A stretch of 24,322 bases of DNA from a virus, in IMG/VR virus record IMGVR_UViG_3300025769_000818, positions 1 through 24,322 of that record. The stretch is one strand, 5' to 3'. Below the pieces are notes generated by a model, which saw only the letters and a list, made by a program, of their open reading frames with translations, was not told the DNA's origin and did not search any database. The position numbers and the translations under genes are program-made. Below, in pieces: positions 457 through 17,198 of this stretch (position 1 is the first letter of the stretch; each line of letters opens with the position of its first letter).

Positions 457-725
457 CAGTTGTCCTGTGTGTTTGTTGGGCGCATTGCTTTATTTAAGTC
501 ATCAAGAAAAGCTTCCGTGAGAAAATAAGTCTTGTAATAATCTTCTAATAAGTAATCATCAGTATTAGTTTTTAACCACTCAACCACCTGCTCCAACTGC
601 CAATCAGCAGCGGCTCGCATCTCGATGTAGTCGTGTTCCGATTCGAGAGGGAAGGTCACAAGTCCTTCGCAGATCTTGTCAGTCAGTGGGTGTTGGTTGG
701 ACATGTTTGTTTGAGTTGTATTCAT
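456..725 (-). CDS. hypothetical protein, 89 aa, behind ICR copy 1
   Basis: An acidic helical protein (WQLEQVVEWLKTNTDDYLLEDYY in its middle) of unknown function. Its start is unusual: the ATG is fused directly to the TATAGT box of ICR copy 1, with no spacer. If TATAGT is a promoter -10, the transcript would begin inside the coding region and the internal ATG at residue 8 (MSNQHPL) would be the start. Otherwise translation runs from an upstream transcript. The stop is coupled to the next gene by ATGA. Confidence 0.7.
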   Translation of the reverse strand: MNTTQTNMSNQHPLTDKICEGLVTFPLESEHDYIEMRAAADWQLEQVVEWLKTNTDDYLLEDYYKTYFLTEAFLDDLNKAMRPTNTQDN

Positions 726-761
726 ACTATAGGGGTCAATTGGAGGTGAGTAACTTTAATA
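726..761 (-). repeat. ICR copy 1 (intergenic cassette repeat)
   Basis: First of 16 copies. On the minus strand the consensus is TTAAA, then GTTACTCACCTCCAATTGAC, then C, C or A, CTATAGT, GTAACCAC. The 20-base core is identical in all 16 copies. This copy has the C variant (ggggtc on the plus strand) and lacks the GTAACCAC tail because ATG follows TATAGT directly. The consensus holds TAA, TGA and TAA stops in the three frames and a TATAGT box that could be a -10. The GTTAC at one end can pair with GTAAC at the other where that tail is present. Confidence 0.95.
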
Positions 762-1020
762 GGTTGTATTAAGTGTTAATTAGTTTTTATACTAAATAAT
801 ACTGTTATGTGTTCCGCGAGTTCACTTATCGGCGCTTAAGTTATTACCACTGAACTCTCCTGCGGGGTAAAGAGTCAGATACAACTAAGCACAACCGGTA
901 AGTAACGCATAGGAGAGACACATCAGCAGACAATAGTATACAAAAGGTTTTTGGAGAGATATGCCTTAACTCTATTTTTTAGTGCGTATATATAACACAT
1001 AAAAATAGAGTTTGTGCGAA
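762..1020 (-). other. gene-free stretch with two strong RNA hairpins (candidate noncoding RNA)
   Basis: No credible reading frame lies here, which is unusual for so compact a genome. Two foldable elements are visible. At 814-865 there are nested stems: CCGC/GCGG, GAGTTCA/TGAACTC and CTTA/TAAG; on the plus strand the 5' arm (CCGC, GAGTTCA, CTTA) is continuous and the partner arm is interrupted by two bulges. At 968-1012 there is a 12-base-pair AACTCTATTTTT hairpin. The segment sits upstream of ICR copy 1, where other copies are joined to a gene stop. It may be a noncoding RNA or a long structured leader for the 456-725 gene; I recognise no known riboswitch or tRNA. Confidence 0.4.
968..1012 (-). 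terminator. long hairpin after the 39-aa gene, possible terminator
   Basis: Perfect 12-bp stem AACTCTATTTTT/AAAAATAGAGTT, extended by TGTG/CGCA towards a loop rich in TATA. It begins 9 bases after the stop of the 1021-1140 gene on the minus strand. No U-tract follows the stem, so it is not a standard intrinsic terminator; it could also stabilise a 3' end. Confidence 0.4.
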
Positions 1021-1140
1021 TCAAAGCACAGATTTACGTTGACGCTTAATCTGTGAGGGGAGCACGGTGACTGTTACTTTAGTGTGACCATTTGCTTTGA
1101 GAGTGTCAATGGTCTGTAGCAGTTGCTGTGTAGAACTCAT
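1021..1140 (-). CDS. hypothetical small protein, 39 aa
   Basis: Encodes MSSTQQLLQTIDTLKANGHT, then KVTVTVLPSQIKRQRKSVL. It has a short amphipathic helix followed by a likely strand and a basic tail (KRQRK). No Shine-Dalgarno site; the leader contains the TAAGTAACACTTACTC-type motif shared with a few non-ICR genes here. Function unknown. Support is the clean ATG-to-TGA frame filling the gap before the hairpin. Confidence 0.5.
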   Translation of the reverse strand: MSSTQQLLQTIDTLKANGHTKVTVTVLPSQIKRQRKSVL

Positions 1141-1184
1141 AGTTGGAGTAAGTGTTACTTAAGAGGTGTTTGAGTAGTGTTTAC

Positions 1185-1385
1185 TTAACCGTGAAAATCT
1201 AACTCCTCCCAATCCCATTGAACGCCGTCTGGTGAACACTCAGGCTGATTCATAGATTTACAATAATTAACTGCTGCTTCTTGAGTTGAGAAGATTTTAG
1301 CAGCACGATTGCCTCTCAAAATAATTGTTTCACGAATGCTATCAGGGTTAGTGAGGAAAGGAAAGGTGATAAAGGCTGAAGTCAT
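1185..1385 (-). CDS. hypothetical protein, 66 aa
   Basis: Starts MTSAFITFPFLTNPDS and ends WDWEELDFHG. The pattern of strands, then a helix (STQEAAVNYCKSM), suggests a small alpha/beta domain. I do not recognise a family. It is the gene served by ICR copy 2; the leader between the TATAGT box and ATG is AC-rich (ACCACACAATCGACTT) and has no Shine-Dalgarno site. Confidence 0.65.
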   Translation of the reverse strand: MTSAFITFPFLTNPDSIRETIILRGNRAAKIFSTQEAAVNYCKSMNQPECSPDGVQWDWEELDFHG

Positions 1386-1396
1386 AAGTCGATTGT

Positions 1397-1440
1397 GTGG
1401 TTACACTATAGGGGTCAATTGGAGGTGAGTAACTTTAATA
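1397..1440 (-). repeat. ICR copy 2
   Basis: Full-length copy with GTGTAACCAC tail, C variant. Upstream of the 1185-1385 gene. Its far side faces the inserted plus-strand homing endonuclease rather than a gene stop. Confidence 0.95.
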
Positions 1441-1481
1441 GACTGTACTTTGAGGGTTTCAGAGTATTTTGGGGGAGGGGG

Positions 1482-1510
1482 TTGACATTATGAGAAAGGC
1501 CTGATATGAT
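1482..1510 (+). promoter_or_regulatory. sigma70-type promoter of homing endonuclease 1
   Basis: TTGACA (1482-1487), a 17-base spacer, then TATGAT (1505-1510) on the plus strand, within one base of the bacterial consensus. It is the only convincing plus-strand promoter with a gene behind it. The -10 includes the first in-frame ATG of the downstream frame, so that ATG cannot be the start. A G-rich run (1471-1481) lies just upstream. Confidence 0.8.
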
Positions 1511-3477: not shown

Positions 3478-3723
3478 TTAAGCGACCAATTCTTTCATCA
3501 TTTCATTTACTTCTAATCCGTTTATCTTAACATCATCCCACTTACATCCGTCTGGTGTTTCTTTACTTCCGGCATCGTGAATCATACTTACCAGATGTCC
3601 ATAAGTTCCACCATCCCTTGCAACATCACAGGCAAGTTCATACAAACCAGGATCATTTGCAATCCAGAGAGTAACATTCCAGGTCTCCCAAGTGCTCCAT
3701 CCATTGTAAGTTTCAGTAGCCAT
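3478..3723 (-). CDS. DUF7249-like phage protein, 81 aa
   Basis: The N terminus TYNGWSTWETWNVTLWIAND is the signature of a small phage protein family that I recall being annotated DUF7249; the rest (YELACDVARDG) fits. Function unknown. It has a 97-base leader between its ATG and ICR copy 4, much longer than other ICR-linked genes, and this leader can fold into two nested stems (see 3758-3818). No Shine-Dalgarno site is visible; the 20 bases before ATG are T-rich. Confidence 0.8.
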   Translation of the reverse strand: MATETYNGWSTWETWNVTLWIANDPGLYELACDVARDGGTYGHLVSMIHDAGSKETPDGCKWDDVKINGLEVNEMMKELVA

Positions 3724-3757
3724 GATTAAAAGAAGAAAAAAGATTTAGTGGTGATGA

Positions 3758-4414: not shown

Positions 4415-4900
4415 TTAAAAATCTCCATTACCTTGACCAACATCGAACACAAATATACCTCGGTCAACCCACATATCAACAACGCGCTTTCTATCATCAA
4501 ATACACAGAATATCTCCTTACCTTCAGATATAATCCTATCTGCTATCTCTCCCTTTACGATACCATCACAACGGTGATCACCGGCCTTCCTCATATACAA
4601 GTTACCAGAGAATCCCTTGTAAGAGTTTGGACAAACTTTAGGATCAAAGCCGTTATCTAATAACCAAGCTTCGGTAACTTCTCGATATTCTTCACCCCTA
4701 CCAGACACAAATAAGACTTCAACATCATCCCTAGAAACGATACTTTCAAACATAAACTTAACAGCTTCATTTGGAGTATCGAGACTAATGCCCTTATTCC
4801 AAGCGTCCCAATTCTTAGGTTTAGATGCAACAAATTTCCTGCGATGAGTCACATTGCAAATAGTTCCGTCAAGGTCGAAGATAATAACTTTCTTAGTCAT
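4415..4900 (-). CDS. polynucleotide 3'-phosphatase (C-terminal half of T4 PseT as a separate gene), 161 aa
   Basis: An HAD-family phosphatase that removes 3'-phosphate or 2',3'-cyclic phosphate from broken RNA ends so that they can be ligated. D9 and D11 in FDLDGT form motif I, S66 in VSGR motif II, and D135-D136 in FDDRKRVVDMW motif IV. MRKAGDHR-D-VKGEI and the terminal GDF closely follow the phosphatase domain of T4 polynucleotide kinase/phosphatase. In T4 the kinase and phosphatase are one protein; here the kinase is a separate gene ending 3 bases upstream. With RNA ligase 1 nearby it forms a tRNA repair set. Confidence in the enzyme class is high. Confidence 0.92.
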   Translation of the reverse strand: MTKKVIIFDLDGTICNVTHRRKFVASKPKNWDAWNKGISLDTPNEAVKFMFESIVSRDDVEVLFVSGRGEEYREVTEAWLLDNGFDPKVCPNSYKGFSGNLYMRKAGDHRCDGIVKGEIADRIISEGKEIFCVFDDRKRVVDMWVDRGIFVFDVGQGNGDF

Positions 4901-5664: not shown

Positions 5665-6807
5665 TCACCAACTGAGGTCGTTAAATATCCAACGAACATT
5701 ATTTACTTTATTCTTGGTGTTAATGTTTTTCTTTAGATATTCCGTCACAATATCACGACAAGAGTTGGAATTACCACTCTTCATCATCTTATACAGAAAC
5801 GGAGCATATTTTGGATCAACATTCTTCACATACTTAACGGCAAAATCTCTAGATTCAGGATACTTAGCATAGCCCTCTTCAAAGAGGTTGGAGACAGTAT
5901 CGCAGAAGTTAAAAATGGCCAGGTTAAAGTCATTAGCAAACTCAACAATTCTATCGCGATCAGATGGAGAACTATCAAGTAATGGAAGCAAGTCGTCCAA
6001 AGAGTCGTTAAGAATTACAGAAAGTACATTCTTTTCTAAACGAATAGATTCCTTGCATTTGTGACGAAGAACATAATCAGCGGTCTTGACTTTAAGCATA
6101 CGACCATCATCGAAACGGATAATAATGCCCTCGACATCATCACCCCAGTCGCGAATAGTCATAACAAATTTAGATATATCGTCAGAAGACTTGTTTTCTA
6201 CAGTATTAACGACAGGAATGTTGTAAATACCGGCTACACGGCGAATAGCATCATAACCAATATAGTGACCGGTGGAATTTACACGTATTGCGGTTAAGAT
6301 AAGGTCGTCTTTATCATAATCAACTACGATACGATTCTTTCGAGAAACCCACTCAAAGATAGGAGTAAAGGTATTAAGTAAAGTTTCAATAAAATTGGAA
6401 TAGTTTGGTTTATCAGCGATAAAGACTTCCGCATTCATGGCAACATCAGTAACACCTGCTTTAGTTCCTAATCTAAACCCAGTATCACAAGGAATAGGCC
6501 TAATCATAGAACCATCTAATTTCTCTAACACAACATGTGGCTCAGATAAATCGAGAGAATCTAAAGAAGTGTAAGACTTCTCGCCGACATTAAAGAACTT
6601 ATGGTAAGGCCTAGAGATTAAATTGCCGGACTTATCAAATATCAATCCTCTACATTCTGCACGAACTGGACAATCGAAAGAATCATCATAAGCAACCATA
6701 TAGTTGATTGCAGAATACCAACCTTTATCAGTGACCTTAAATTCAGGACGGTCAGCAATAAAAGGCAATATATCATTTATGTGGTTTATTTCTGGAAAGA
6801 TAGCCAT
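5665..6807 (-). CDS. rnlA: RNA ligase 1 (T4 Rnl1 family), 380 aa
   Basis: ATP-dependent RNA ligase that seals tRNAs cut in the anticodon loop by host nucleases. The nucleotidyltransferase motifs are in order: KLDGS at 96-100 with the AMP-accepting lysine K96, ECRGLIF at 51-57 upstream as in Rnl1, FEW at 151-153 (motif III), EGIIIRF at 226-232 (motif IV) and LKVKTADY at 238-245 (motif V). Length is close to T4 Rnl1 (374). An in-frame TTG at 6816 is possible, but ATG 6807 is preferred. It follows ICR copy 7, and the kinase and phosphatase are downstream in the same direction. Confidence 0.93.
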   Translation of the reverse strand: MAIFPEINHINDILPFIADRPEFKVTDKGWYSAINYMVAYDDSFDCPVRAECRGLIFDKSGNLISRPYHKFFNVGEKSYTSLDSLDLSEPHVVLEKLDGSMIRPIPCDTGFRLGTKAGVTDVAMNAEVFIADKPNYSNFIETLLNTFTPIFEWVSRKNRIVVDYDKDDLILTAIRVNSTGHYIGYDAIRRVAGIYNIPVVNTVENKSSDDISKFVMTIRDWGDDVEGIIIRFDDGRMLKVKTADYVLRHKCKESIRLEKNVLSVILNDSLDDLLPLLDSSPSDRDRIVEFANDFNLAIFNFCDTVSNLFEEGYAKYPESRDFAVKYVKNVDPKYAPFLYKMMKSGNSNSCRDIVTEYLKKNINTKNKVNNVRWIFNDLSW

Positions 6808-6820
6808 GTCAGTCAATTGG

Positions 6821-7092: not shown

Positions 7093-7198
7093 TTTTTCTA
7101 TAATTCTACTTCCTATCAGGTGTGATAGTAGGTTATCCCGACCCGATATGGAAAAAACAGTTTATAATATCCCGAGATCCCTTGGTATGACTGGGCCG
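7093..7198 (-). promoter_or_regulatory. duplicated intergenic block A (probable promoter region)
   Basis: A 106-base block that aligns end to end with 12970-13074 with a single length difference. The 24 bases at 7175-7198 (agatcccttggtatg then actgggccg, plus strand) are identical in both. Minus-strand features shared by both are CCCAG at the start, TTTTTCCATATCG in the middle, CACACC, and TAGAATTAT near the downstream gene. Both copies precede a short ICR-less gene. Substitutions do not favour third codon positions, so a plus-strand mini frame (MEKTVYN) is not supported as coding. Confidence 0.6.
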
Positions 7199-7823: not shown

Positions 7824-8368
7824 GAGTTTATAAGTCCTTTGAGTGTTGCTTTTAGTTTCTTATTCTCTTCCTCAAGTTCTTTGACTCTAATCCTAAGATC
7901 TTTGTCATCATCTTTCTTCTCAAGAATGGTATTTGTTAGATTAGCATCCTCAAGTTTAACCTCCCAAAGGTTGGCACCACTTAGATCAGCATTCCAAAGA
8001 TCAGCACCCTTAAGATTAGCACCCCATAGATTAGCACCCCTAAGAATAGCACCCCATAGATTAGCACTCTTAAGATTAGCACGCCTTAGATTAGCATCCT
8101 CAAGATCAGCACCCTCAAGATTAGCACGCCTTAGATTAGCACCCTCAAGATTAGCACCCTTAAGAATAGCACCCTCAAGAATAGCACCCTCAAGAATAGC
8201 ACCCTTAAGATTAGCACCCTTAAGGTTAGAACAAAAAAGGTCAGCACCCTCAAGGTCAGCACCCTTAAGATTAGCACCCTCAAGGTTAGCATTCTCAAGA
8301 TTAGCACCTCTTAGATCAACACCTTCAAGGTTAGCACCAGGTTTGATTTCGTATCCGTTGATGTTCAT
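7820..8368 (-). CDS. pentapeptide-repeat protein with coiled-coil tail, 182 aa
   Basis: After the leader [13 protein letters not shown], residues about 13-145 are uninterrupted A(N/D)LxG pentapeptides, predicted to form a right-handed quadrilateral beta-helix. Residues about 147-182 ([20 protein letters not shown]) form a coiled coil, perhaps for dimerisation. Such helices can mimic DNA (Qnr/MfpA gyrase-protecting proteins) or act as scaffolds; nothing here decides between these. The gene has its own possible promoter (8394-8421) and an AAGAG before ATG. It is the last intact member of a five-gene array. Confidence 0.88.
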
Positions 8369-8393
8369 TGAGGTGTCTCTTGTGTATGAAAGT

Positions 8394-8421
8394 ATTATAA
8401 GGCATTTGGATGCCCTATAAA
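8394..8421 (-). promoter_or_regulatory. possible sigma70 promoter before the last pentapeptide gene
   Basis: TTTATA (-35, 8416-8421), 16-base spacer, TATAAT (-10, 8394-8399) on the minus strand. The spacer contains a GGCAT/ATGCC hairpin that could alternatively end the upstream transcript. The -35 is weak. Confidence 0.4.
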
Positions 8422-8432
8422 GGGTTCAGTGG

Positions 8433-9020
8433 TCAGTTGTTCAAGTGTCCAGAAGATTCTTTGAGTGTTGCTTTAATGTTCTTAAGTTCCTCCTCAAGTT
8501 CTTTGATCCTGAGGTCTTTATCATCATTGATTTTCTCCTTATCAAGAATGGTGTTGGTTACATTAGTATCCCTTAGGTCAGCACCCCATAGATCAGCATT
8601 CCTAAGATCAGCATTCCTAAGAATAGCATTCATAAGATCAGCATTCCTAAGATCAGCATTACAAAGATCAGCACTCCAAAGATCAGCATCCTCAAGATTA
8701 GCACCCTTAAGATTAGCATTCCTAAGATTAGCATCCTCAAGATTAGCACCCTTAAGATTAGCATTCTCAAGCTTAGCACTCTCAAGATCAGCATCCTCAA
8801 GATCAGCACAACTTAAATCAGCATCCCTAAGATTAGAACCCTTAAGATTGGCACCAAATAGAGAAGCACCCTTAAGATTAGCACCCCTTAGATTAGCACC
8901 ATAAAGATCAGCACCCCATAGTTTAGCATTCCTAAGGTTAGCATCCTCAAGATTAGCACCGCTTAGATCAGCACCCTTAAGATTGGCACCTGGTTTGATT
9001 TTGTATCCGTTGACTATCAT
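8433..9020 (-). CDS. pentapeptide-repeat protein with coiled-coil tail, 195 aa
   Basis: Leader [14 protein letters not shown], pentapeptides to about residue 155, then a charged coil ([18 protein letters not shown]) that is clearly related to the tail of the 7820-8368 product. Substituted positions (LWG, LRN, LCN) show that this copy has diverged more than the others. ATG 9020 overlaps the TGA of the upstream short pentapeptide gene. The two tailed proteins may pair through their coils; this is inference. Confidence 0.88.
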
Positions 9021-9134
9021 AGTTTAAGTCCTTCTAAAATAGTTCCCTTAAGATTAGCATCCTTAAGGTTAGCAACCCTTAGATTAGCACCCCTTAGATT
9101 AGCGCCCTTAAGAATAGCACCCTTAAGATCAGCA
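9003..9134 (-). repeat. 132-bp direct duplication, copy a
   Basis: Identical base for base to 9763-9894. It spans the end of one pentapeptide gene, the ATGA junction and the first bases of the next. The lack of any difference implies a recent duplication or ongoing gene conversion. Confidence 0.9.
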
Positions 9135-9181
9135 TCCTTAAGGTTAGCACCCGGTTTAAGTTCGTATCCGTTGATGTTCAT
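9017..9181 (-). CDS. short pentapeptide-repeat protein, 54 aa
   Basis: Leader [14 protein letters not shown] followed by about seven pentapeptides and the tail [10 protein letters not shown]. Its last 38 residues equal those of the 9777-10037 product. Too short for more than two helix coils, it may be a recombination product or a capping subunit. Both ends overlap the neighbouring genes by ATGA. Confidence 0.75.
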
Positions 9182-9780
9182 GAGTTTATAAGTCCTTCTA
9201 AAATAGTTCCCTTAAGATTAGCACCCTTAAGATTAGCACCCTTAAGATTAGCACCCTCAAGATTGGCACACTTAAGATAAGCACACTTAAGATTAACACC
9301 CCTTAGTTTAGCACCCTTAAGGTTAGCACACTTAAGATCAGCACCCTTAAGGTTAGCACCCCATAGAGAAGCACCCTCAAGATTAGCACGCCTTAGGTCA
9401 GAACCACTTAGGTTAGCAGAACTTAGATAAGCACCCTCAAGATTAGCATTCTCAAGATCAGCACCCTCAAGATTAGCAACCTCAAGATAAGCACCTTCAA
9501 GATAAGCACCTTCAAGATCAGCACCCTTAAGGTTAGCACCCCATAGATCAGCACCCCTTAGATTAGCACTCTTAAGATTAGCATCCCTAAGATCAGCACC
9601 CCTTAGATTAGCACCCCTTAGATTAGCATCCTCAAGATTACCACCCTTAAGATTGGCACCAAATAGAGAAGCACCCTTAAGATAAGCACCCTTAAGATCA
9701 GCATTCTCAAGATTAGCATTCCTAAGATCAGCATCCTTAAGATCAACACCCGGTTTAAGTTCGTATCCGTTGACTATCAT
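9178..9780 (-). CDS. pentapeptide-repeat protein without coil, 200 aa
   Basis: Leader [14 protein letters not shown], then about 35 consecutive pentapeptides with few irregularities, ending [10 protein letters not shown]. It is the longest of the array and lacks the coiled-coil tail. Phe and Trp appear at the variable positions (LFG, LWG), and Lys/Glu alternate. A long regular beta-helix of roughly nine coils is expected. Coupled at both ends by ATGA overlaps. Confidence 0.88.
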
Positions 9781-12969: not shown

Positions 12970-13074
12970 TTTTTCAATAATTCTATGTGACTGAAGGTGT
13001 GTTAGGTCATAAAGGGGTTCGATATGGAAAAATCAATTTATGATACTCCCAGATCCCTTGGTATGACTGGGCCG
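12970..13074 (-). promoter_or_regulatory. duplicated intergenic block B (probable promoter region)
   Basis: Second copy of the block at 7093-7198. It starts 1 base after the helicase stop and ends 9 bases before the ATG of the 12754-12960 gene. On the minus strand CCCAG and CTGGG near its start can form a small hairpin; TAGAATTAT is a possible -10, 23 bases from the ATG. No terminator precedes this copy. Confidence 0.6.
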
Positions 13075-17024: not shown

Positions 17025-17198
17025 TCAGGAGAAGAAGTGGTCAGGTGCACTCAACTCCTCAACATATGCAGTAACGCTTTCATTACCTTGAATATCCAAT
17101 AGTTTGTCCCACTGGATATTGTGAGCGTCAAAATCTTCAAATACATCGAGTTCGATCGTAACTCTATACTTGGACTTCTGAGCGTAGGCTAGAGACAT
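17025..17198 (-). CDS. conserved cyanophage-type small protein, 57 aa
   Basis: Encodes MSLAYAQKSKYRVTIELDVF, then EDFDAHNIQWDKLLDIQGNE and an acidic tail. The pattern (AQKSKYRVTIELD... then an acidic loop and helix) is familiar from T4-like cyanophage genomes (recollection). Function unknown. A convincing promoter lies 28 bases upstream (17226-17254). Confidence 0.72.
   Translation of the reverse strand: MSLAYAQKSKYRVTIELDVFEDFDAHNIQWDKLLDIQGNESVTAYVEELSAPDHFFS

Follow-up and report, generated by a model that had tools for sequence, protein, structure and literature searches.

Sequence comparison across related viruses points to a stand-alone gene for a late, structured noncoding RNA at positions 802-980 on the plus strand of the viral DNA analyzed here (the window, 24,322 nucleotides in full), and we put the probability of this reading at roughly three in four. 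The RNA appears to represent a family of T4-like cyanophages that is kept in shape more than in letters. The window is itself part of a T4-like cyanophage, an assignment made from its sequence because PHROGs names an RNA ligase, a polynucleotide kinase, a DNA helicase, and a Nol-like carbamoyltransferase among the ten window proteins scanned, and because window 500-1500 has Synechococcus phages as its DNA relatives in the phage records. A 74.6-kb IMG/VR contig (L006, also designated G001) carries an element identical to that of the window. The minus strand holds most window ORFs and the plus strand the RNA element, which runs antiparallel to most flanking genes in the window, in cyanophage isolate S-SRM01, and in L012, L013, L019, and L020. 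The preliminary description had singled out 762-1020 as gene-free, and no ORF of at least 50 amino acids (aa) overlaps that segment; a 39-aa minus-strand ORF ends near 1021. An antisense type of gene overlap is likewise absent, with no ORF of at least 50 aa overlapping 802-980, and ARAGORN finds no tRNA gene in the window. A coding gene was rejected because no reading frame is conserved in the element: its longest ORFs vary in start and length from one group of homologues to another.

A blastn match to an unannotated gap in S-SRM01 (E 5e-4) was the starting point for pattern scans of viral contigs, which yielded L006-L018, L019-L021, L126, L150, L152, L153, and L154. In the S-SRM01 record the predicted RNA would span about 190 nt on the minus strand, around 86.4-86.6 kb. 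Besides S-SRM01 and the window, 21 IMG/VR contigs contain the element; the 16 distinct sequences fall into about six groups, assigned by eye. Model R1 of the element matches all 18 initial sources, from which it was partly built, and also L126, L150, L152, L153, and L154, none of which was used in building it. It finds one element in each of four larger contigs and, under stricter filters, in one (S-SRM01) of 15 cyanophage isolate records scanned whole. L126 was found with a pattern that leaves out the apical hairpin P4, and its P4 changes in a compensatory way; the pattern that found L150, L152, and L153 leaves out the outer stem of that hairpin. L154, the same as L152 by eye, was left out of the counts, as were L151 and L155 and, among the 21 new pattern loci of the scan that yielded L126, the others, all of which lack a model match. 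Pattern matches L024-L026 were set aside as unlike the element by eye, and a further pattern scan returned only the known L019-L021. Queries from the other groups found S-SRM01 by blastn at E 2e-10, 2e-53, 0.2, or 0.02, or found nothing, and the remaining records were all at E of at least 0.9. Cyanophages at E 0.2-9 match, among the matches listed (20 of 79 records), only the first 44 query bases, upstream of the RNA. A host origin was rejected, the element being found in none of 300 genomes of one cyanobacterial family (stricter filters, with no positive control within that search) and none of five further host-type genomes, 305 in total; the genome contig collection contained no exact pattern match.

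In the predicted fold, the 5' end of the RNA would pair with the strand just before ACAA, which would close the molecule into a rod capped by a hairpin. The 5' strands of P0 (802-806), P1 (807-812), and P1b (813-815) pair with 912-929, and those of P2a (820-822), P2b (824-832), and P3x and P3 (834-837 and 839-842) pair with 883-906. On the 3' side the strands are those of P3 (883-886 and 887-890), P2b (895-903), P2a (904-906), P1b (912-914), P1 (918-923), and P0 (925-929). The last of these opens a conserved tail, AGCAGACAAT (925-934), with AGCAGACAA in 15 of 16 distinct sequences and AGTAGACAA in L005. P1 changes in compensatory fashion (AUGUGU/ACACAU, AUGUAU/AUACAU, AUGAAU/AUUCAU, AUUUGU/ACAAAU). 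By hand reading, the partners in P2a, P2b, P3x, and P3 also differ together between groups, as in P2b (ACUUAUCGG/CCGGUAAGU, CAAUUCU/AGAAUUG, GUUUCU/AGAAAC, UAACUG/CAGUUA, AUCUAC/GUAGAU) and P3 (AGUU/AACU, GAGU/ACUC, GAGUUU/AAACUC). The apical hairpin P4 (850-878, CTGA-A-CTCT-CC-TGCG-GG-GTAA-AGAG-TCAG in the window) has a stem that covaries (CUCU/AGAG, CCUU/AAGG, CCAU/AUGG; CUGA/UCAG, UUGA/UCAA) and bulges that stay constant: among 16 distinct sequences, the bulged A and the GUMA bulge are present in all (GUCA in 13, GUAA in 3) and a UNCG loop in 14 (UACG in 13, UGCG in the window), with UAUAU in L019 and L020. The apical CUCCUACGGG resembles a helix of 16S rRNA, a likeness that was dropped because of the UAUAU loop in those two sequences. 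Minimum-energy folds of the window, L019, L005, and L013 all contain the same rod.

Formal covariation counts were limited to P0, P1, P1b, and P4; the helices of P2, P3, and the 3' domain are hand-read. Both sides change in 6 of the 22 pairs counted, on a model-fitted alignment and on a MAFFT alignment alike, with 96.6% and 95.5% of cells paired, respectively. None of 500 shuffles on each alignment, made without regard to relatedness, reached the covariation score, and sliding the partners by one to three columns left only 30-45% of cells paired. Further pair types are no more numerous than in shuffles (276 and 348 of 500 reach the count). Sequence comparison shows the pairing of the outer and apical helices, along with a conserved core, a promoter-like box in constant position, and a terminator-like 3' end. 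RNAalifold recovers the same outer and apical helices together with a few doubtful pairs, since P2 and P3 of different groups do not line up in the alignment used. The window unit 799-980 taken alone has a modest folding gain (z -1.61, with 16 of 200 shuffles as good).

These results bear on the preliminary description, which had read 762-1020 as a structured segment and possibly a phage noncoding RNA. The kind of element was rightly recognized; the unit is corrected to about 802-980 on the plus strand. Conservation among homologues, on which that reading had been made to depend in part, is found in both respects: the 21 IMG/VR contigs and S-SRM01 keep the sequence and, through compensatory changes, the pairing, and so support a phage noncoding RNA. 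On each strand the segment also has a better fold than any of 200 dinucleotide shuffles (z -2.81 plus, -5.23 minus). Structure had been noticed in two inverted repeats that do exist, the conserved pairing being that of a different fold. One is a 7-bp stem with two extensions (GAGTTCA 818-824/TGAACTC 851-857, CCGC 814-817/GCGG 862-865, CTTA 825-828/TAAG 837-840), and the other a hairpin at 968-1012, with AACTCTATTTTT from 968 and its complement from 1001 forming 12 exact base pairs. Both had been called longer than expected by chance, which holds for the hairpin (a perfect inverted repeat of at least 12 bp arises in 1 of 300 shuffles) and fails for the stem (one of at least 7 bp arises in 62% of 300). 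Across 11 homologous sequences the stem and its extensions lack covariation support, since 441 of 500 shuffles reach its 75.6% of cells paired and 423 of 500 its covariation score, even though it beats its own slid versions; it was rejected as the functional fold. The hairpin begins inside the predicted 3' end of the RNA, lies mostly beyond it, and is not general among homologues: by eye it occurs in only part of the window's group (the window, L008, L009, L010, and L016) and is absent from L007, L015, and the other groups.

Putative signals for a promoter and a terminator of its own are present in the sequence. In nine of nine distinct sequences outside the window's group, a box, TATAAATA, ends up 5-6 nt ahead of the P0 three-base core. 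Within that group, which has no exact NATAAATA and in which P0 is two pairs longer, the same place is taken by ACTAAATA in six of seven sequences (at 791-798 on the plus strand in the window) and by ACTATATA in L009. ACTAAATA is a variant of the late promoter NATAAATA; a further copy lies 37 nt upstream of a minus-strand ORF in the window's phage. If T4 late promoter spacing holds, the 5' end presumably falls within about 802-804, and with the predicted 3' end at a T run the RNA is about 180 nt long. NATAAATA is described as the late promoter of cyanophage S-PM2, found in others too, in the available text of PMC2984593. Of 50 gene starts listed for S-SRM01 1-50 kb, 21 have it 21-50 nt upstream, and it is missing within the 80 nt searched from the other 29; the list omits 20 of 70 annotated features, mostly ones overlapping a preceding gene. 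Counts on the gene strand of G001 versus the other strand are 21 to 2 for ATAAATA and 10 to 5 for CTAAATA, and within 70 nt of its 52 minus-strand ORFs of at least 110 aa, NATAAATA is found at 11 and CTAAATA at 4. Among the genes scanned in the window's phage, NATAAATA precedes those for portal, scaffold, sheath, tail tube, and one unknown, while those after CTAAATA are a member of a tail-fibre-assembly-like family, a translation repressor, and two unknowns; neither box occurs before the major head gene in the stretch searched. NATAAATA stands before structural genes both in this phage and in S-SRM01.

At the other end, a hand-read 3' domain (944-980, plus strand) consists of S1 (944-947/964-967) crossing S2 (953-956/970-973), followed by the T run (975-980). 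S1 and S2 each differ together between groups. S2 appears as GGAG or AGAG/CUCU, CCAC/GUGG, CCAG/CUGG, CCAA/UUGG, or CAGAG/CUCUG, with a U-rich stretch after it in each group, and S1, which would cross it, as AAGG/CCUU, UGGGUU/AAUCCA, AGGGU/ACCCU, AAGGGU/ACCCUU, or AGG/CCU. This domain is terminator-like, possibly with a pseudoknot.

We propose that the RNA would be transcribed late from a promoter of the NATAAATA type, on the strand opposite most genes, and that the transcript would end at the stem and U run to be released as a free RNA. Late in infection it may serve as the RNA component of a complex whose protein comes from the host or the phage. An apical stem that varies around constant bulges fits a protein-binding site, which makes action in trans the likeliest mode; that the RNA does act in trans by binding a protein is offered as a tentative suggestion.

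It is possible, if rather unlikely, that the stand-alone RNA instead pairs with messages through single-stranded parts (AGACAA), as bacterial small RNAs do. AGCAGACAA ranks with the best-conserved stretches and the fold leaves part of it unpaired, as such a mode would lead one to expect, but conservation spans the whole hairpin rather than merely a seed. Neither the window's phage contig nor S-SRM01 1-100 kb is enriched in complements of AGACAAT, and antisense action on phage messages through this motif was rejected for that reason; on both strands of G001 the complement of AGCAGACAAT occurs only once, as expected from the element itself.

Seizure of the host gene-expression machinery late in infection by the RNA acting as a decoy or mimic, for example in place of an anti-sigma protein, is a speculation that we regard as unlikely; the constant apical bulges would then be the protein-binding site. 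Such phages are not known to encode an anti-sigma protein, nor are cyanomyoviruses known to encode AsiA. We are equally doubtful of a decoy like 6S RNA that would occupy host RNA polymerase and thereby favor late transcription. The RNA resembles 6S RNA (RF00013) in its length of about 180 nt (host 6S is 182-184 nt in three cyanobacterial genomes) and in a rod closed by its own two ends, and cyanomyoviruses are described as lacking alt, modA, and modB in the accessible part of PMC2984593. However, window 600-1200 has no RF00013 match even at E 10 and model R1 does not match the host 6S loci, so that membership in the 6S family was rejected in either direction tested. In the predicted fold the internal loops are modest and appear smaller than those of 6S RNA, the widest in the rod being 7 by 4 nt in the window and about 8 by 8-9 in L005, L012, and L013, and the window's predicted fold shows no comparably large central bubble.

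That the functional RNA is instead encoded by the minus strand, forming a structured untranslated part of the mRNA between the 39-aa gene and an 89-aa gene, is improbable. The minus strand of 762-1020 does have the stronger fold score given above, but across the rods of 16 sequences (z -2.1 to -4.9 plus, -0.9 to -4.0 minus) the plus strand is stronger in 12 and the minus strand in 4. The 12 hand-read helices comprise 771 Watson-Crick cells out of 812, 33 G-U, 5 C-A, and 3 other. Only the ratio of G-U to C-A is informative here because the helices were chosen for pairing, and since that choice was made on the plus strand it is biased in favor of G-U; the five C-A cells would become G-U on the minus strand. 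Furthermore, every group has the TATAAATA-type promoter-like box and the stem with its U run on the plus strand, and flanking genes differ between groups.

A gene for a GIY-YIG endonuclease (PF01541, E 1e-11, and PHROGs) lies at 1650-2438 on the plus strand, in an ORF that opens at 1506 with its likely start at 1650, about 33 nt after a ACTAAATA box. GIY-YIG genes are found 0.36-0.97 kb downstream of the RNA and on its strand at five distinct loci: the window, L012 (3052-3798), L013/L018 (11249-12364 in L013), L008/L014, and L153. Where they align, those of the other four loci share 30-40% identity with that of the window. Upstream of the gene, a ACTAAATA- or TATAAATA-type box is present in the window, L008, and L153, and none is present within 120 nt of it in L012 and L013. 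Three records, covering 74.6 kb, 99.6 kb, and 60.0 of 62.5 kb, contain four GIY-YIG genes found, three of them at this place downstream of the RNA, a placement with a naive chance of about 6e-7, noticed post hoc. None was found in S-SRM01 1-100 kb or in the examined flanks of L005, L007, L010, L015, L019, L020, L126, L150, and L152; flanks of L009 and L016 are too short to judge. That the locus chiefly serves homing endonucleases as a target or cargo, its DNA conserved as a cleavage site, is the least probable reading, favored by this adjacency and opposed by the nine loci and S-SRM01 that keep the RNA with no GIY-YIG gene found, and by compensatory changes, which argue for selection on RNA. 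A group I intron with a homing endonuclease was also considered and set aside, as there is no match to an Rfam intron family.

Another neighbor is a 57-aa protein family with no Pfam match, encoded convergently to the RNA in L005, L007, L012, L013, L015, L019, and L020 (L019 4899-5072, L020 2008-2181, L005 about 3619-3750) and present in the window at 17043-17183. Elsewhere in the window, a near-identical box, AGTTACTCACCTCCAATTGACC(C/A)CTATAGTGT, occurs upstream of minus-strand genes at 16 minus-strand places between 749 and 15401, with no plus-strand copies; at 15 of these places the next ATG follows after 24-60 nt. It is probably an early or middle promoter. Two plus-strand ORFs (98 and 93 aa), lying among minus-strand genes, start within 7144-7198 and 13020-13074, stretches that are 89% identical. 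At about 7866-9780 a 15-base period extends over long runs, which presumably encode pentapeptide-repeat-like proteins, as in L006 7171-7641. The polynucleotide kinase and RNA ligase genes (4415-4900 and 5665-6816), 3.4-5.8 kb from the RNA gene, are possibly an RNA-repair pair.

The family was found neither in Rfam nor in the open literature searched. The window and nine homologous loci have no Rfam match at gathering scores, window 600-1200 has no credible one at E up to 10, and no description of the family was recognized in the portions of that literature available. The available text of the S-SRM01 genome paper uses "noncoding" once, about psbA, and has no mention of ncRNA, promoter, intergenic, or small RNA. 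Other cyanophage RNAs named in the accessible literature are antisense, cis-regulatory, or known to Rfam. CfrI of cyanophage S-PM2, about 225 nt long and antisense to psbA and an endonuclease gene, is similar in being noncoding, encoded by a T4-like cyanophage, and located close to the gene for a homing endonuclease (available text of PMC2984593); in contrast, the RNA here overlaps no such ORF, and S-PM2 has no match to the element model. RNAC and RNAD of T4 are likewise small RNAs of a T4-type phage, with no known role, but come from the T4 tRNA region and are set apart by genomic place, the window having no tRNA gene (PMC3014915, in part). PhotoRC-II, wcaG, manA, glnA, and abiF RNAs are also structured and reported in cyanophages, in the consulted parts of PMC9602691, PMC9964418, and PMC2864571, but were called from Rfam, none of whose families the present RNA matches. 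Unlike the cis-regulatory RNAs among these, it has its own late box and a terminator-like end and is antiparallel to flanking genes.

The accessible part of a 2010 review states that functional characterization was lacking for any small trans-acting regulatory RNA of T4 (PMC3014915). The family described here is self-contained, covaries, and has one cultured member, S-SRM01, which grows on Synechococcus KCZYC6. Because that phage is in culture, direct questions can be put to a late structured RNA of a large lytic phage, and the role that such an RNA may have late in lytic infection would become directly addressable.
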